Shown here: in pieces, positions 1 through 51,357 of the stretch | How positions within the stretch are numbered: the stretch's first letter is position 1 | Layout of the letters: each line of letters begins with the position of its first letter | Assembly: GCF_900104045.1 (NCBI RefSeq) | Contig: NZ_FNIN01000012.1 | Location: forward strand, 1-52,517 | Direction: 5' to 3' | Length of the DNA: 52,517 nucleotides | Source: Desulfonauticus submarinus | GTDB lineage: Bacteria; Desulfobacterota; Desulfovibrionia; Desulfovibrionales; Desulfonatronovibrionaceae | Notes under the pieces: generated by a model | Told to the model about the DNA's origin: nothing | The model's database searches: none | The model's input: only the letters and a program-made list of their open reading frames with translations | Made by a program: the position numbers and the translations under genes

Positions 1-17
1 GTTTCTATAAAATTCCC

Positions 18-285
18 ATTTGAATTGTCCCTTGATGAAAAAAGGATTGAGACCCATCTATTTTTCTCCCAAAAATAAAAGAGCGCTCCAGTCTGTATTT
101 GAATTGTCCCTTGATGAAAAAAGGATTGAGACTGGCCTTCATAATCGAAGGCCTTTTCTGGGCGCTCCACGCATTTGAATTGTCCCTTGATGAAAAAAGG
201 ATTGAGACAGTTTTCCAATAAGTGTTGTATGTTATCCAATTGCTTTTAGATTTGAATTGTCCCTTGATGAAAAAAGGATTGAGAT
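18..285 (+). CRISPR. CRISPR array, 3' (trailer) end, partial
   Basis: Four 36-bp repeats lie at 18-53, 97-132, 173-208 and 250-285, with spacers of 43, 40 and 41 bp. The first three repeats are identical; the last ends GAGAT instead of GAGAC, the usual decay of a terminal repeat. Each repeat ends in ATTGAGAC, the form of the 8-nt 5' handle of type I-B/III crRNAs, so transcription is inferred to run left to right and this is the leader-distal end. Bases 1-17 are the end of a further spacer, so the array continues beyond the window edge. The leader is not visible. Confidence 0.97.
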
Positions 286-473
286 AATAGTTTAAAGCTA
301 TCAAAGCTACCTTGTTTTATATTTTTTATTGAAATTTTTATTGAAAAATTAAATGGAGCGTTGACTTTTAGATTATCATATTTTTAGCAATAAATATAAA
401 TTTAATAATTAATATTGTCTCAATATTGTTTTTTCCCTATTTAACTATCTTTAAGCTAAAAAGGAGGAAAGAA
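286..473. other. Array trailer and intergenic region
   Basis: Very AT-rich sequence between the last repeat and the first small gene. It contains a tandem TTTATTGAAA-like direct repeat near 325-345 and the paired AATATTG/CAATATTG element described separately. No convincing ORF or terminator is seen. Confidence 0.6.
411..428. promoter_or_regulatory. Paired AATATTG-N3-CAATATTG element (copy 1)
   Basis: AATATTG, the spacer TCT, then the perfect 8-bp palindrome CAATATTG, followed by a T-run. The same architecture, with an 11-bp period, appears at 2241-2259 between the Card1-like gene and cas1. The repetition in two intergenic regions of the same island suggests a binding site for a dimeric regulator. 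The CARF-winged-helix protein at 4019 is the obvious candidate, but that link is inference. Confidence 0.45.
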
Positions 474-3468: not shown

Positions 3469-3744
3469 ATGTTATATGTAGTAGCTTATGATGTTTGCTC
3501 TCCAAGACGATTGAGCAGAATTCATAAATTTTTAAAAGATTTTGGAGTTCCTGTTCAGTATTCTGTATTTGAGTGCGATTTAGATCTAGAACAAATAAAT
3601 AAAATGATTGCAGGAATAAAAGATATTTTAGATTTAGAAGAAGATTCTTTAATTGTTTATCCTGTTTGTAGAGAATGTAGGCCTAAAATTAGCATTGCTG
3701 GGCAAGGTTATATTTGGATAGATAAAGAGTTTTGGGTTTACTAA
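3469..3744 (+). CDS. cas2: CRISPR-associated endoribonuclease Cas2 (copy 1)
   Basis: A 91-residue ferredoxin-like Cas2 with the N-terminal signature YVVAYDV, in which D8 is the conserved aspartate, followed by RRLSRIHKFLKDFG and QYSVFEC. It serves as the structural dimer of the Cas1-Cas2 integrase. It contains a CRECRP motif in the C-terminal part. It starts one base after cas1 and its stop codon overlaps the start of a second cas2 (TAATG), so translation of the two is coupled. Confidence 0.95.
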   Translation: MLYVVAYDVCSPRRLSRIHKFLKDFGVPVQYSVFECDLDLEQINKMIAGIKDILDLEEDSLIVYPVCRECRPKISIAGQGYIWIDKEFWVY

Positions 3745-4022
3745 TGTGGGTAGTAGTTATTTACGATATTAGAAATTCAAGGCGATTGTCCAGAGTTGCC
3801 AAGGTAATGGAAGGTTATGGAAAAAGAGTGCAAAAGTCGGTTTTTGAATGTCAACTTGAGCTAAGTCATTTAAAAAGATTGCAAAGAGAAATAGAAAATA
3901 TTATCAACAAAAAGGAAGATTCTGTAAAATATTTTCGTTTGTGTGGAAAGTGTTTTGAAAAAAGTTTTGTGCTTGGCCAGTGTGAACGCCATATTGTTAT
4001 CCCAGAGGTAGAGATTATTTGA
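3744..4022 (+). CDS. cas2: Second Cas2 family protein
   Basis: A 92-residue paralogue of the preceding Cas2: WVVVIYDIRNSRRLSRVAKVMEGYG with the conserved aspartate, then QKSVFEC, and a CGKC motif where copy 1 has CREC. I place the start at ATG 3744, which overlaps the cas2 stop and gives the family-typical N-terminus; an ATG 12 nt upstream would add four residues. The two proteins are clearly diverged, so a heterodimer, or separate partners for two adaptation complexes, is possible. The stop overlaps the TTG start of the next gene. Confidence 0.9.
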   Translation: MWVVVIYDIRNSRRLSRVAKVMEGYGKRVQKSVFECQLELSHLKRLQREIENIINKKEDSVKYFRLCGKCFEKSFVLGQCERHIVIPEVEII

Positions 4023-5131
4023 AAAATAGAATTTTACTTTGTCTTTGTGGTTTAACCCCTCAAGTTATCACAGAAGCAGTTTATTGTTTAGCTCATTACG
4101 AGCCCCAATTTATTCCTGATAAATTAGAAATTATTACTACTTCTAGAGGCAAGATGCATATTTTAGAAAGTTTATTGCATCCAATGCAGGGTAAATTTAA
4201 CTTATTATGTAAAGAATATAATTTGAATATATTTTTTGATGAGTCTTGTATTCATGTAGTGGATTTTCAAAAAGAATATCTAGATAATTTTGAGACTAAG
4301 AATAATAATCTGAAGATGATGGATTTAATTTTAGCCATTGTAAGAAATCTTTGTTTGCCTCAAGAAAATCAAGTCTATGCTTGTCTTTCTGGTGGACGCA
4401 AGACAATGAGCTTTTATTTAGGTATGGCAATGCAGTTTTATGCTAAAGAAAATGATGAACTTTTTCATGTATTGGTTAATAAAGAGTTTGAAAATCATCC
4501 AGAATTCTATTTTCCCCCTAAAATAGAAAAGCAAATTGTTTCTGTTGATTCAAAAAGTGGGAAATTAACTTATTTTTCCAGTAAAGATGCAAAATTGGTA
4601 CTATATAAAGTTCCTTTTGTAAGATTAAGGCCTTTAGGTGTAGTAAAAGATATAGAAAAAATTTCTTTTGCTAAACAAGTTAAATATGTACAAGAAACTA
4701 TTAATAAATCTTTGAAATTACATGTAAACATAGGAAAAAGAACTTTAGTGTATGGAAATAGAATGGTTGAGCTAACTCCAATGGAAATGGCGTTATATTG
4801 TTTTTTTGTAAAAAAGAAACTTGATTGTCCTCAAAATAAATGTATTTTAAATTGTACAAAATGTTTTGTTTCTGTATATGATTTGGATGTAGATGTGTTA
4901 ATTCGATTTTTAAATAAGATTAAAGGGCATTGGAATCCTAATTCAGCTCAACTTTATCAACTTAAACAAAAAGGGGATATTAAAAGTTGGTTTTTTCCTC
5001 ATAGATCAAGAATAAACAGAAAAATAAAAAAAGTATTTGGCTCAATTGGACTTATTGAGTCTGAAAAACGTTATGCAGGTACACGATATGGTTTAAATAT
5101 TGATAAAAAAAATTTAATTTTAGAAGATTAA
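4019..5131 (+). CDS. CARF protein of NE0113 type with C-terminal winged helix
   Basis: A 370-residue protein. The N-terminal half is a CARF domain of the NE0113/Csm6-like family: LCLCGLTPQVITEAVY near the start and LSGGRKTMSFYLG at about 123-135, the expected cyclic-oligoadenylate pocket. The C-terminal third resembles an OmpR/PhoB-type winged helix: VELTPMEMALYCFF, then SRINRKIKKVFG and GTRYGLNID. No HEPN R-x4-6-H motif stands out. This suggests a ligand-sensing transcriptional regulator, or a ring nuclease with a DNA-binding tail. Translation starts at TTG 4019, overlapping the second cas2 stop. Part of its tail is duplicated at 7592-7663. Confidence 0.85.
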   Translation: MKNRILLCLCGLTPQVITEAVYCLAHYEPQFIPDKLEIITTSRGKMHILESLLHPMQGKFNLLCKEYNLNIFFDESCIHVVDFQKEYLDNFETKNNNLKMMDLILAIVRNLCLPQENQVYACLSGGRKTMSFYLGMAMQFYAKENDELFHVLVNKEFENHPEFYFPPKIEKQIVSVDSKSGKLTYFSSKDAKLVLYKVPFVRLRPLGVVKDIEKISFAKQVKYVQETINKSLKLHVNIGKRTLVYGNRMVELTPMEMALYCFFVKKKLDCPQNKCILNCTKCFVSVYDLDVDVLIRFLNKIKGHWNPNSAQLYQLKQKGDIKSWFFPHRSRINRKIKKVFGSIGLIESEKRYAGTRYGLNIDKKNLILED

Positions 5132-5449
5132 AAAAAGTAAAAACAAATTTTTTGATTTAGGTATGAAAAAATTCAAGCCTAAGAAGAGCTTTTATTCTCT
5201 GTTATAAGGGTGTTTTGGGGTAGTTTTTGAGGCAAAAAGGGATTGAAATTAGGAAAACATAAGATTTACAAAGTTGTTATCGTTTTTTATTATCTCTCTT
5301 GTTTCCTCATAAAAAGTTTGCAAGTGTAGGCTATAGACCTACCAAGAATTGTATCCTTGAAGGCTGCATCGCATTTGATGTTCCTTTCTTGAAACTGGCA
5401 AAAATTTTGGTTTAATTCAAGAGTATAGAGGGGATAAAATTAATTTTTT
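5132..5449. other. Intergenic region before the M50 gene
   Basis: 318 bases with no supported gene. It begins with ATTAAAAAAAGTAAA, which recurs after the duplicated tail at 7663. A small hairpin (GTAGG / CCTAC around 5327-5343) lies in the middle, and AGAGGGG at 5427-5433 is the only Shine-Dalgarno-like stretch before the next gene. No clear promoter or terminator is visible. Confidence 0.5.
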
Positions 5450-7144
5450 ATGAATAATACTGAAATGCGTGACACGTATTTAATTATTAATCCTGAGCTT
5501 TCAAATGTTCGTAAAGCAACAGAATTTGTAAAGCAATGGGCTGTAAGATCAGGGCTTGCTGATAAAATACTTTTAAGATTTCTTTTTGCTGTTAGTGAGT
5601 TAATCGAAGCTATTGTGCTGTTTTCTATTGAAAATAGTTTGAGAGAAAAAATAAATATTGAAGTCGAGCCATGGGAAGGATGGATAAAAGTAAATGTAAA
5701 GTTTTCTGCCAAAGTCCCCATAGAGCCTTATTTTGAGCATAAAGAATCTAAAAGTGATAAATTCCCAGGACATGAAATAGCTCCAGAGGTGTTTTGGCAT
5801 CGTGTAGTTGTGGAGTGGGTAGATAAAGCAGAGTGGACAGAAATTGGCGGATGGAAACGAGTAAGTTTTGTTCAGTATGCAAGGCCTTCAGGTAGTCCTG
5901 GAGAATTATATTTTTTAGGTCTTGTCCCTATTCAAAGAAAAGGAGTGAATATAAAAATCGTGGGAGAAGATGTTGGCATTGTTACGATAGAAGGAGTTAG
6001 AAATGCATTTAGAATGACAAAAGAAATGATGTTTATACTCAATGCTGTAGATGGCAAACGCAATGTGAGAGAAATTTATCGTTTGTATGTAGAAAAGTTC
6101 GGAATTGTCCACCCAAAAGTAGTTGGTGGTATGATAGAAGAGCTTATAAAGCGAGGTATTTTATTACCTGGATACCGTATTACTGCAAAGGGTTCCACCC
6201 TAACAAATACAAAGCAGAATAAATTTTTGCAAAAGCTGTTGCGCTTTCAATATTCTATCCCACATCCAGATAGCTTTGTTTCATTTGTACATCGTTACTT
6301 AGGTTGGTTATGGTCTCCTTTTGTGGTTGTTGTTGCTTTTGTTTTAATATTTTCTTCTTTTCATATTCTTGTATTTAACTTCAGAGCTGTTGAATCTATT
6401 TCTGGTAAGGCATATTTGCTTTTTTCGCGCGCAGGAGGGCTAATTGGACTAGTTAGTCTTTTATTACTTAATGTGCATATTATTTTTCATGAATTATCGC
6501 ATGCTGTAGTATGTAAACGATTTGGAGGGCGTATTCATGCTCTGGGCATCCTTTTTTATTATGGTTTTATATGCGCATTTGCAGATACCACTGATTCCTG
6601 GGCGTTTCCATCGCGATGGAAGAGAATAATGGTTTCTTTTGCTGGACCGTTGTCTGATCTTACTGTTTCGTGTATTTATGGTTGGGCTCATATTTTTTTT
6701 ACACGGCAGAATTTAGATATATATGCTGGCGTATGTGGATTGATGAGTATTTTACTTTTTTATTTTTCTTTGGTTAATATGATACCTTTTTTTGAAACAG
6801 ATGGTTATTATATCCTTTCTGATATGTTGAATATCCCCAATTTAAGGAAGAAATCATGGAATTATTTAAAACAGTTTTTGTTTTCAATTGTTTTAAACAA
6901 AGATAGGCCAAAAATTTCTTGGAAGGAAAAATTTTCGTATCTTATATTTGGAAGCGTTTCTCTTTTATGTGTTGGAGCTATATTGCTTCCGCCTATTCTT
7001 GTCGTTTTTGGATTAAAGCAATCACCCAATGATTTTGTTTGGTTTTTTTCTTGTTTTTTTGTTGTCATAATAGCATTAAAAATTTCAAAAATAGCCTTTG
7101 AATGGTATCATAAGGCTCGTTTGACCCAGATAAAATTGAAATAA
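5450..7144 (+). CDS. Membrane M50 metalloprotease with RsbW-like and PqqD-like domains
   Basis: A 564-residue protein with three parts. Residues 10-150 resemble an RsbW/anti-sigma GHKL ATPase fold (INPELSNVRKATEFVKQW, then SELIEAIVLFS), but the N-box asparagine position is glutamate and the glycine boxes are poor, so ATP use is doubtful. Residues 170-240 resemble a PqqD-like winged helix that binds peptide leaders. From about 285 on there are several membrane helices with the zinc motif HELSH (H347, E348, H351), SWAFPSRWKRIMVSFAGP and the third ligand D451 in TDGYY, as in YydH-type peptide proteases. The ribosome-binding site is weak (AGAGGGG 17 nt away). It precedes the NHLP peptide, its probable substrate. 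Confidence 0.85.
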   Translation: MNNTEMRDTYLIINPELSNVRKATEFVKQWAVRSGLADKILLRFLFAVSELIEAIVLFSIENSLREKINIEVEPWEGWIKVNVKFSAKVPIEPYFEHKESKSDKFPGHEIAPEVFWHRVVVEWVDKAEWTEIGGWKRVSFVQYARPSGSPGELYFLGLVPIQRKGVNIKIVGEDVGIVTIEGVRNAFRMTKEMMFILNAVDGKRNVREIYRLYVEKFGIVHPKVVGGMIEELIKRGILLPGYRITAKGSTLTNTKQNKFLQKLLRFQYSIPHPDSFVSFVHRYLGWLWSPFVVVVAFVLIFSSFHILVFNFRAVESISGKAYLLFSRAGGLIGLVSLLLLNVHIIFHELSHAVVCKRFGGRIHALGILFYYGFICAFADTTDSWAFPSRWKRIMVSFAGPLSDLTVSCIYGWAHIFFTRQNLDIYAGVCGLMSILLFYFSLVNMIPFFETDGYYILSDMLNIPNLRKKSWNYLKQFLFSIVLNKDRPKISWKEKFSYLIFGSVSLLCVGAILLPPILVVFGLKQSPNDFVWFFSCFFVVIIALKISKIAFEWYHKARLTQIKLK

Positions 7145-7256
7145 ATATAGTTTTTTGAACGAAGACATTAATTTTTTATGGATTTTGGAGATTTTTTTTT
7201 GTAAATAAAAAAACACATATATTCACATATATTTTATTAAAAAAAGGAGGCGTAAG

Positions 7257-7499
7257 ATGAAAGAAAAAGAACTTTTATTAAGCCTACTTTCCGATGCTGA
7301 ACTTATGGCAAAATTCAAGGAAAATCCCAAAGCAGTATTAAAAGAAAAGGGAATTGATGTTCCTGAAGATGTGGAAATTAGGGTTGTGGAAGAAACAGAA
7401 AAGGTAAAGTATTTTGTAATTCCTTATGTGGGTAGCGATGCCCCAGCTAGTATTGAGGAATTGGAACAAAGGACAGCAAAATATTGGATTATAGCGTAA
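7257..7499 (+). CDS. NHLP-leader (nitrile hydratase-like) peptide, RiPP precursor candidate
   Basis: An 80-residue peptide with a nitrile-hydratase-alpha-like leader: LLSDAELMAKFKENPKAVL, KGIDVPEDVEIRVVEET and KVKYFVIP. Such leaders precede modified peptides (RiPPs of the NHLP group). The tail after the leader is about 24 residues, YVGSDAPASIEELEQ to AKYWIIA. It lacks cysteine and the usual GG cleavage site, and has only a few serine/threonine residues. The start has an excellent AAGGAGG. It lies 112 nt after the M50/PqqD protease gene and is followed by a strong terminator. No modifying enzyme is adjacent. It could also be a small nitrile-hydratase-like protein of other function. Confidence 0.8.
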   Translation: MKEKELLLSLLSDAELMAKFKENPKAVLKEKGIDVPEDVEIRVVEETEKVKYFVIPYVGSDAPASIEELEQRTAKYWIIA

Positions 7500-7539
7500 A
7501 AATTTAAGTTGAAGTTTATAATTTTGTAGAATACTTGTT

Positions 7540-7584
7540 AAAAGAATCCTCGACGTACTTTTTTGTGACGTCGAGGATTCTTTT
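7540..7584 (+). terminator. Strong intrinsic terminator after NHLP peptide
   Basis: A perfect 17-bp inverted repeat: AAAAGAATCCTCGACGT at 7540-7556 and its complement at 7568-7584, with an 11-nt loop rich in T. The A/T ends make it potentially bidirectional. It closes the M50-NHLP unit. Confidence 0.85.
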
Positions 7585-7591
7585 GTTATGT

Positions 7592-7663
7592 GATATTGAA
7601 GCTAAAAAATATTATGCAGGTACAAGATATAATTTAAGTTTTGATAAAAAGAAGGTTAAGTGA
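7592..7663 (+). pseudogene. Duplicated C-terminal fragment of the CARF-winged-helix gene
   Basis: The frame reads IEAKKYYAGTRYNLSFDKKKVK and stops at TGA 7661-7663. It matches the tail of the CARF regulator (IESEKRYAGTRYGLNIDKKN). The nucleotide similarity includes TATGCAGGTACA and continues past the stop into ATTAAAAAAAGTAAA. No start codon or upstream part remains; the terminator hairpin abuts it. It is a remnant of a second CARF-winged-helix gene or of a duplication that accompanied insertion of the M50-NHLP cassette. Confidence 0.8.
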
Positions 7664-7703
7664 GAAAATTAAAAAAAGTAAATAACATAAGGAGAAATTA
7701 AAA

Positions 7704-7961
7704 ATGAGAAAAAGTTTATGGGTAATCATAGTGTTATTGGCTTTGGTTATAAGCACTATTGCTAGTGCAGGCATTTGGACATCTATTAACTCTTTGACCT
7801 TAAAAGAAGTAAAGCCTTCCAAAACTTATGCTTTAGACGTGGTAGGCTTAAATGTAAGAGTATATGAATTTGACACTCAAGAAGAGCCTGTTCATCATTG
7901 TGTTGTTATTTTTACAGAAAGTAAGTATAAAGCTCCAGTAATGCAATGTTGGAAAAAATAA
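7704..7961 (+). CDS. Small secreted protein, unknown
   Basis: An 85-residue protein with a signal peptide (MRKSLW, hydrophobic core, cleavage after ASA about residue 22), leaving a mature chain of about 63 residues with exactly two cysteines near the end (HHCVV and MQCWKK). They could form a disulfide in the periplasm. AAGGAG lies 9 nt before the ATG. It lies downstream of the duplicated CARF tail and converges with panB, with 4 nt between the stop codons. No family is recognised, and a link to the NHLP cassette is uncertain because the terminator separates them. Confidence 0.7.
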   Translation: MRKSLWVIIVLLALVISTIASAGIWTSINSLTLKEVKPSKTYALDVVGLNVRVYEFDTQEEPVHHCVVIFTESKYKAPVMQCWKK

Positions 7962-49144: not shown

Positions 49145-49462
49145 CTATACACAGCCAGTTGGTTTTGGCAAACCAGCCATCTTACATGCTCCCTTACCAG
49201 GTCCAGATGGGAACAATTCATAGATTTGTTTCAACTTGAAGCCAGTAACCTTGGAAAGAATTCTAACCATAGGAGCGATACCATTCTTTTTGTAGTAGTC
49301 TTGTAAGAATTCGATAACTTTTCTATGATCGTCAGTAATTTCCTTGATGCCTTCTTGTTCTTTTACATATTCAACCCACTCTTCACACCAGTCCTCAAAC
49401 CTTTGTAAGAAACCGTCTTCATCAACTTCAAATTTTTTGCCTTTGAATTCAACAACAGCCAT
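49145..49462 (-). CDS. dsrC: DsrC, sulfite reductase physiological partner
   Basis: A 105-residue small redox protein of the DsrC/TusE family. The C-terminal arm carries both redox cysteines, C93 in GACKMAG and C104 in the penultimate position (PTGCV). This marks true DsrC, the trisulfide-forming partner of DsrAB, rather than TusE with one cysteine. It is strong evidence for sulfur-compound reduction. It has AAGGAGG before the ATG, its own promoter and a strong terminator, as expected for this highly expressed gene unlinked from dsrAB. Confidence 0.97.
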   Translation of the reverse strand: MAVVEFKGKKFEVDEDGFLQRFEDWCEEWVEYVKEQEGIKEITDDHRKVIEFLQDYYKKNGIAPMVRILSKVTGFKLKQIYELFPSGPGKGACKMAGLPKPTGCV

Positions 49463-49543
49463 TTTCTAACCTCCTTAAAAGATTATTTTTTGTTGACCCT
49501 GAACCACCAGAGTCACATTCTCTATTAATGCATAGCTAAGATT

Positions 49544-49572
49544 TCCTAAAATAAGACATTATTTTTTGTCAA
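49544..49572 (-). promoter_or_regulatory. Probable dsrC promoter
   Basis: Read on the minus strand: TTGACA at 49567-49572, 17-bp spacer, then TTAGGA at 49544-49549 (an alternative TATTTT lies 3 bp closer). The -35 is perfect; the -10 is poor. It is about 80 nt upstream of the dsrC start. Confidence 0.45.
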
Positions 49573-49638
49573 TGTTTTTTTAAAAAACAGGTCATTTACT
49601 TATTATTTAAAGTAAGGTGAAGACTCGATCTTTTTATA

Positions 49639-51357
49639 TTACATTGTATTTAGTTCTTTTTGGGCAAAGTCAAGATGTGGTTCTAATTCCAAGGCTTTTT
49701 TAAGAAAAAATTTAGCGCTTTCTTGATCTCCTAAATGTTTATAACATATTCCAATATTAGCCAAGTCTATGGCAGAGCCACTATCAAGAGAGAGAGCTTG
49801 TTCAAAATATGTTAGAGCCTTAGAATAATCCTTTTGTTTAAAATAAGCTACTCCTATTAAATTATGGTATTCCTTTACATCAGGCACTAGTGAAATAGCT
49901 TGAGTTAAAATAGGAGGGATTTCGCTCCATTTTTCTTCTAAGCTTAGACTATAAGCCCAATAAAATAAACTTAACGCTTGTTCTTCTGGCTGAGGTTGGA
50001 TTTTGCTTGCTTTTTGAAAAAATTTACTTGCTTGTTCAATTTCAGATAGTTTTAATAAGGTCAATCCTTTAAAAAAAGGTATAAAATGGGCATTAGGATA
50101 ATATTTTTCCAGAATATTTAGCTTTTCCCAAGCAGCTTCAGGTGGTTCATTTTCTGCTATTAATCTTCCTACAAAAAGGCCTAAACTAGCTTGAGAAGTC
50201 CTTTCTCTAAAGGCGAATCCTGGTATTATGTTGTAGTTAGTAGGAATATTTAAGTTAGGATGCATAGTAGAGATGGCATATAGAGTATAATCCATCTGTT
50301 TTAAAGCAGAAGCCAATGATTTTAGTTCGTTGTAAATATCATCTGCTTCTAAATTGGGAAGGCAGTTAAGAGAAATAAATTCTCCTTGCATGACCCAATC
50401 TACTTCTTTTAACGAAGTATATTTTGCTAATCCTGAGGGCTCATAGGTACTATTAGTAGAAAAATCTCCACCAAGCTGAGCTACTTCTGTAAGGGCTCTA
50501 ATAGCTGCTTTGGCTGGTGAAGTAGCTGTCCCTGCTGTGAAGACTATTTCACTTTTATAAGGAAATGTACTTGGATCATACGCTAAAGCTGCTATTGTGG
50601 GTACAGGAAAACCATAAGAGAAATCTTTAAGCCATACTTTTATACCTTGACGTGTGAACTTATTCCAAAGGTCCACGAGAGTTTGATCTGTAAAGGTTGT
50701 GGGATCAATAGTGGGACATATTTGTTTTTGTCCTTCAATTAGGGCACAGACATGTCGTTCTATAAGTTCACAAGCGCCTTGGAGTATAGACTCTTCAAAT
50801 GTATTTCCTGCTGATGAGCCATTATATTCATTTAAAAGTTTGAACCAGTTAAAGGGTAAGTAAGTCTCTTCTTCTGTAGTTATTTTTAAGGCTAAGGTAA
50901 AATCCCATTTTATTAAGTCTAAAATCTCAATTGCTTTGCTAGGAGATAGATTGTCTTGTACAGATTTAAGTAGTTCTTTTATGGGTATTACTTTTTCTCC
51001 AAATTTGTTTTTAGCTTCAGAGTATGTTAAATGAAAAAAGTTCTCTTTTTCTTGGACAAAATTAAAAAAACTAAAACGTTCTACCAATTCCATTAAAGCA
51101 GAAGCTTTTGCTTGTTCTGGAGAAGAACCTTTCCCCATTTGCTTGCGAGAAGGCATAATCTTTTTAGCCTTAGGTCCACAGATACTCATATAAACGGGGA
51201 TACCTAATCTGCCTATGTCGATTCTTTTTAATTCAAAAAGAATCTCTTGTCCGAATTTTTTTAACGCACTTTCTACCTTTTTTACTGTGTGTTCAGGAGA
51301 GAATGCTTTATCTAGATCTTTTGTATATTTTTTAGGACATGCTTTAAGTTTAAACAT
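49639..51357 (-). CDS. YcaO-domain protein with C-terminal TPR repeats
   Basis: A 572-residue protein. Residues 1-400 are a YcaO domain with the ATP-binding signatures SSPEQAKASALMELVERF (79-95) and GNTFEESILQGACELIERH (184-202). From about 420 there are several TPR units (YHNLIGVAYFKQKDYSKALTYFEQAL, ANIGICYKHLGDQESAKFFLKKALELEP). E. coli YcaO has the same layout and length and is linked to RimO methylthiolation of ribosomal S12, so this may be the counterpart rather than a RiPP cyclodehydratase. It overlaps the upstream methyltransferase by 8 nt. Confidence 0.9.
   Translation of the reverse strand: MFKLKACPKKYTKDLDKAFSPEHTVKKVESALKKFGQEILFELKRIDIGRLGIPVYMSICGPKAKKIMPSRKQMGKGSSPEQAKASALMELVERFSFFNFVQEKENFFHLTYSEAKNKFGEKVIPIKELLKSVQDNLSPSKAIEILDLIKWDFTLALKITTEEETYLPFNWFKLLNEYNGSSAGNTFEESILQGACELIERHVCALIEGQKQICPTIDPTTFTDQTLVDLWNKFTRQGIKVWLKDFSYGFPVPTIAALAYDPSTFPYKSEIVFTAGTATSPAKAAIRALTEVAQLGGDFSTNSTYEPSGLAKYTSLKEVDWVMQGEFISLNCLPNLEADDIYNELKSLASALKQMDYTLYAISTMHPNLNIPTNYNIIPGFAFRERTSQASLGLFVGRLIAENEPPEAAWEKLNILEKYYPNAHFIPFFKGLTLLKLSEIEQASKFFQKASKIQPQPEEQALSLFYWAYSLSLEEKWSEIPPILTQAISLVPDVKEYHNLIGVAYFKQKDYSKALTYFEQALSLDSGSAIDLANIGICYKHLGDQESAKFFLKKALELEPHLDFAQKELNTM

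Follow-up and report, generated by a model that had tools for sequence, protein, structure and literature searches.

The window is a 52,517-nucleotide stretch of the Desulfonauticus submarinus genome (contig NZ_FNIN01000012.1). Two adjacent genes on its forward strand encode an M50 membrane protease and a short NHLP-type peptide (Table 1). Both open reading frames, together with a good ribosome-binding site for the peptide gene, had been proposed in an earlier sequence-only reading of this DNA, and all were recovered here. The region around the hairpin that follows the peptide gene has a folding energy of -31.4 kcal/mol (z -6.2); thus, the peptide gene is probably the last of its transcription unit. 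An ORF of 85 aa after the peptide gene (7704-7961) begins like a signal peptide and resembles no family clearly.

Table 1. Features of the protease-peptide locus (window positions; protein residues are numbered within each product)
Feature	Position	Strand	Basis
RsbW-like/RRE/M50 membrane protease, 564 aa	5450..7144	+	ORF; M50 match; AlphaFold model
N-terminal RsbW/SpoIIAB-like (GHKL) domain, residues about 5-145, ATP-binding motifs degenerate	5462..5884	+	
RRE/PqqD-like winged helix, residues about 154-243, putatively leader-binding	5909..6178	+	predicted fold
M50 (site-2) membrane protease domain	6245..7138	+	fold match; hydrophobic segments
HELSH zinc-binding motif, H347-H351	6488..6502	+	H347, E348 and H351 invariant in 18 proteins
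NMIPFFETDG, second M50 motif, likely third zinc ligand D451	6776..6805	+	18-protein alignment
Shine-Dalgarno AGGAGG of the peptide gene	7245..7250	+	sequence; 6 nt 5' of the peptide ATG
NHLP-type precursor peptide, 80 aa	7257..7499	+	ORF; TIGR03793 and NHase_alpha matches
Junction motif R72-T73-A74, at the Gly-Gly position of classical NHLPs	7470..7478	+	
C-terminal tail KYWIIA, presumed core	7479..7496	+	putative cut site
Strong hairpin with U-rich 3' side, likely terminator directly 3' of the peptide gene	7539..7585	+	

The protease belongs to the M50/site-2 family: the HExxH and NxxPxxxxDG zinc motifs are present in membrane helices, and the catalytic set H347, E348, H351, and D451 is intact. 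In the alignment of 18 proteins, P446 and D451 are invariant and N443 is nearly so. The Pfam model M50 (PF02163) matches at 39.6 bits (E 4.9e-10), above the cut-off of 27.2. An AlphaFold model of the full protein was built from 18 sequences (mean pLDDT 77.9), and its N-terminal part was modeled separately (mean pLDDT 81.7). In the full model, residues 266-465 resemble the archaeal site-2 protease MjS2P (3b4r, Z 9.2), and the protein also resembles SpoIVFB (8vjl, Z 10.4). The NCBIfam model daptide_HExxH (NF041824), which describes MpaP, matches residues 174-539 of 564 (E 4.1e-41) at 141.4 bits, below its cut-off of 300. The YydH/LiaK model NF058609 reaches 39.1 bits against a cut-off of 225 and covers the M50 part only. 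The enzyme had earlier been labeled YydH-type; MpaP is the nearer relative.

The predicted fold of the N-terminal domain is that of RsbW. Residues 7-145 superpose on Bacillus subtilis RsbW (6m37) with a Z-score of 16.2 and 1.8 Å over 115 residues, and the separate model gives Z 15.9. The HATPase_c_2 match to the window protein alone is weak (E 0.093); it is E 1.7e-5 in the relative G164, and a family profile of the region run against the PDB matches RsbW (E 0.0014), which bears out the GHKL assignment. The ATP/Mg site of RsbW/SpoIIAB, namely the N-box Asn, G1, and the G2 glycines, has not been retained with the fold. Of 17 family sequences, 16 keep the N-box Glu, none has the Asn found next after it in RsbW, and the G2 motif GLGL has become xLWL or something unlike it, with its glycines gone. 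Because the N-box Asn and the G2 glycines are lost, ATP binding by this domain appears unlikely from its sequence. The domain may have a binding role.

The first reading had suggested that the N-terminal fold controls the protease. Some M50 enzymes, SpoIVFB and RseP among them, operate on sigma-factor pathways, and the fold is very close to RsbW/SpoIIAB; hence, one may picture the domain holding a sigma factor or STAS protein that is released when the peptide is cut or bound. We regard such regulatory proteolysis as very unlikely. The ATP/Mg residues are absent in every member, which argues against control by an RsbW-type kinase, and no sigma or STAS gene was recognized beside the pair in the loci examined, where modifying enzymes recur instead.

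The second domain is predicted to be an RRE. Residues 158-243 resemble the TbiB1-leader complex (5v1v, Z 10.0), residues 154-240 resemble PqqD (5sxy, Z 8.5), and the domain also matches the PbtF RRE (8t19, Z 9.1). The Pfam search of the protease returned no PqqD match, and a family profile on this part found only PaaA, weakly (E 0.33). The proposed PqqD similarity is thus carried by the predicted fold. With the RsbW fold and the M50 match above cut-off, the three-domain fusion described from the sequence is upheld.

The peptide is of the NHLP type, as originally proposed. It matches TIGR03793 at E 7.9e-13 (48.1 bits, just under the cut-off of 50.9) and NHase_alpha (PF02979) at 32.7 bits, above the cut-off of 27.2; it is 43% identical to the peptide of the relative G421. 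C39 peptidases are the usual removers of Gly-Gly leaders, and classical NHLPs are cut by C39 ABC transporters; no C39 peptidase domain was found in the D. submarinus genome. Classical NHLPs carry Gly-Gly at the leader junction (PMC2887384). None of the protease-paired peptides has Gly-Gly there; the window peptide has ELEQRTA. Toward the end of the NHLP region, each of the 30 paired peptides has an Arg motif (consensus E-R-L-A), with 3-17 residues after it. In most loci with YcaO and ThcOx, these tails are rich in Cys, Ser, or Gly, which fits a leader/core boundary at the Arg motif. An extreme case is the NHLP precursor at L089 3690-3992, beside a YcaO and the protease, with the tail AQACCCCPCCCDGSCCP. 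The tails of the window clade (the window locus and its relatives L078, L079, and G421) are KYWIIA, KVVPPG, KIVF, and FTKFGLCA. KYWIIA has no Cys, Ser, or Thr, which excludes azole chemistry for it. NHLP matches in two further genomes (G077 and G103) were set aside: they lack the Arg motif, and both genomes lack the protease.

Several loci have very short tails (AVI, AAN, AIMI, ASAF, and KIVF). They would suit a scheme in which the NHLP part serves as a carrier that is used again and again, and the protease, acting as a carboxypeptidase, takes off one or a few modified residues at the C-terminus. There is precedent in the pearlin pathways, where the M50 enzymes TglG and TmoG act at the C-terminus of scaffold peptides and release single residues (PMC10885120). 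This carrier scheme is improbable, in our view. No pearlin enzyme was recognized next to the pair and the precursors are unlike those of pearlins, tails in the same family reach 17 residues, and the motif common to all peptides precedes the tail rather than lying at the C-terminus.

Relatives of the protease were sought in genomes and in genome contigs. In the contigs, the window protein alone found none, and an alignment of six sequences found them. Loci were scored as paired when an NHLP-type ORF lay close to the protease or within the same gene cluster. An NHLP ORF accompanies the protease in 21 of the 24 distinct loci with the RsbW-like/RRE/M50 architecture, counting the window and L097, whose N-terminal domain is divergent; the other three (G264, L080, and G528) lie on short contigs or at contig ends. 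As a control, we examined 63 M50 relatives that were scored as lacking the N-terminal domain because their profile match begins beyond it. An NHLP ORF occurred in two of these loci, one of which is L097, also among the 24. The pairing is therefore not due to chance, and the conserved association that the initial proposal depended on was found. The pair occurs mostly in metagenome-assembled genomes, from phyla including Thermodesulfobacteriota, Cloacimonadota, Bacteroidota, Acidobacteriota, Planctomycetota, Nitrospirota, and Pseudomonadota. The window clade is well supported (98/97), and the protease precedes the peptide in all four of its members. Neither gene is present in two other genomes of the same genus, which suggests that the pair was gained by transfer. 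No relative of the protease was found among viral contigs and no full-length one among plasmids, so nothing points to a phage or plasmid origin of the gene.

In the window, the pair sits in a type III CRISPR region, with Card1 (1086-2219), cas1, two cas2 genes, and a CARF gene upstream. The two cas2 genes are consecutive and follow cas1 (3469-4022). CRISPR repeats were compared between the window and the contig ends of its own genome. The repeat of the array at the start of the window (1-300) recurs at the end of contig C14 (L220 and L230); hence, the two contigs are probably neighbors. Judged by sequence only, C14 ORFs near the shared repeat read like a cas6/csm operon. The pair might then be an accessory of the island that supplies a defense or signaling peptide, an idea raised at the outset for which we found no support. 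It adjoins the CARF gene, cas1, cas2, and Card1, with the csm-like ORFs across the same array, but no CRISPR genes were recognized beside the pair in the relatives examined, and neither the protease nor the peptide matches a PADLOC model. The setting looks like a coincidence, and a CRISPR role is highly improbable. The 3' end of the CARF gene (5053-5145) recurs in diverged form at 7594-7687, just after the peptide terminator (alignment score 112; shuffle maximum 62). The pair thus lies between two copies of this segment.

Modifying enzymes recur beside the pair in relatives. A SagD-type YcaO with ThcOx is present in L082, L084, and L088, a YcaO of stand-alone type in G421, L087, and L092, and radical SAM genes in G164 and L087. 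A B12-radical SAM gene lies next to the pair in L078 and L079. Reading the sequences alone adds a radical SAM gene in L167 and two upstream ORFs resembling B12-radical SAM enzymes in G532. In L085 and L091, no recognized modifying gene was found nearby. Within the window clade, a modifying-enzyme gene comes next after the peptide in three of the four members; the window has none, and neither the YcaO nor the dehydrogenase that marks a TOMM/azole RiPP locus lies beside its pair. The initial statement that no modifying enzyme is adjacent is thus correct for the window locus and does not extend to the family, in which relatives add YcaO, ThcOx, or radical SAM genes.

The genome itself encodes a 606-aa stand-alone YcaO on contig C3 (L064 5742-7562). 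Over 616 aa, it shares 35% identity with the YcaO that neighbors the G421 peptide, and it matches the YcaOs beside the pair in L092 and L087 at E 1e-106 and 1e-92. The cassette that had been called minimal is so locally, yet the genome keeps a YcaO of the sister-locus type. Among 395 evenly sampled genomes of the phylum, YcaOs of this type (E <= 1e-40) occur only in the window genome and G421, and the full-length protease occurs in five. Since the window genome was selected for its protease, the probability that the one other YcaO genome is also one of the remaining four with the protease is about 4/394 by our own arithmetic. The genomes of L078 and L079, which have the radical SAM gene instead, yielded no such YcaO. 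The C3 gene has a GC content of 55%, against 34% for the protease and near 33% for the genome, and so probably arrived separately from the pair. It ends near a CRISPR array at the contig end, whose repeat differs in type from that of the window and also occurs at the C5 and C17 ends. No contig link was found between this YcaO and the pair; the window array continues on C14, not on C3.

Two other candidate partners were rejected. The same genome has B12-radical SAM matches (E 7e-45), but similar ones occur in a genus and a family member without the full-length protease (G002 and G005), so these matches are not specific. The YcaO-TPR gene at 49639-51357, the nearest YcaO within the window, is near a DsrC-like ORF and is not of the type found in sister loci. 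It is a fusion gene directly beside that ORF (window 49145-51357), and the family members searched have YcaO-domain matches of the same kind. The stand-alone C3 YcaO is a plausible modifying enzyme for the window peptide, and the best candidate.

Enterococcal pheromone peptides are freed by Eep/RseP-type proteases. On that model, NHLP leaders in the window clade would deliver very short hydrophobic tails (about AKYWIIA in the window; KVVPPG and KIVF in relatives), which a single pseudo-RsbW/RRE/M50 protease cuts free, unmodified, as pheromone-like signals, with no modifying enzyme needed. The bare window locus, the strong terminator right after the peptide, the short tails without Cys in all clade members but G421, and the two relatives that likewise lack a recognized modifying gene fit this idea. 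It nevertheless seems rather unlikely, as a modifying-enzyme gene adjoins the peptide in the other three clade members, a matching YcaO is present in the genome, and no receptor gene was recognized.

The locus may alternatively be a relic, in which a modifying enzyme once present in the operon was lost and the remaining pair is useless. An enzyme gene lies downstream in all three sister loci and is missing in the window, and the likeness of the 93 bp after the terminator to the CARF gene's 3' end is a sign of rearrangement. Both ORFs are intact, though, with catalytic residues and Arg motif preserved, and the peptide retains its strong Shine-Dalgarno sequence and terminator. We judge decay unlikely, a little more so than the unmodified signal.

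We favor, with moderate confidence, the reading of the pair as a RiPP precursor and its leader protease, the latter a variant related to the daptide protease MpaP in a system that is not a daptide. The cytosolic RRE would bind the NHLP leader, with the ATP-dead RsbW-like domain perhaps as a second docking surface. The M50 active site (H347/E348/H351/D451) would receive the C-terminal tail and cleave the peptide at the E-x-x-R-[TL]-[AS] motif, the presumed stand-in for the Gly-Gly site, or immediately past it. The tail released at the membrane may comprise some six to eight residues, around KYWIIA, and the leader would stay inside the cell. In relatives, the tail would be modified before the cut by azole-forming YcaO and ThcOx, by a stand-alone YcaO, or by a radical SAM or B12-radical SAM enzyme; in the window organism, prior modification by the distant C3 YcaO is plausible.

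The nearest worked precedent is MpaP, a site-2 protease fused to an RRE, to which removal of the daptide leader is ascribed (PMC10036551). RRE-M50 leader proteases are thus already known from daptides, and the window protease shares the RRE fused N-terminally to the M50 domain. It differs from MpaP by the extra RsbW-like domain and by a score far below the model cut-off. Its precursor is of the NHLP type and ends in KYWIIA, unlike daptide precursors, which end in Thr, and no aminotransferase, decarboxylase, or methyltransferase gene was recognized beside it. EpeP, like TglG and TmoG, is an M50 protease that acts in RiPP maturation (PMC10885120). The epipeptide enzymes YydH, LiaK, and EpeP share an M50 membrane protease in a RiPP locus, but the likeness to the window protein is confined to the M50 part. 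NHLP precursors of TOMMs and proteusins have the same nitrile-hydratase-alpha-like leader, and relatives of the pair sit with YcaO and ThcOx dehydrogenase; here, an Arg motif stands in place of Gly-Gly, tails are very short, and an M50 protease is present rather than a C39 ABC transporter. The anti-sigma kinases RsbW and SpoIIAB have the same fold (Z 14-16); the domain here has lost the ATP/Mg motif residues in all members and is fused to a membrane protease. With partial coverage of the literature, we found no description of an ATP-dead RsbW domain with an RRE-M50 protease tied to non-Gly-Gly NHLPs, and nothing that joins RsbW with RiPPs in a relevant way or proteusins with M50. The novelty of this version is provisional.

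The pair would represent a second, apparently unnamed route for finishing NHLP-type RiPPs, spread across many bacterial phyla. The protease gene offers a handle by which such clusters may be searched for in several phyla, including some whose precursors would be difficult to identify under existing rules. The Arg motif is a concrete candidate for the cut site and would account for how very short products could arise.
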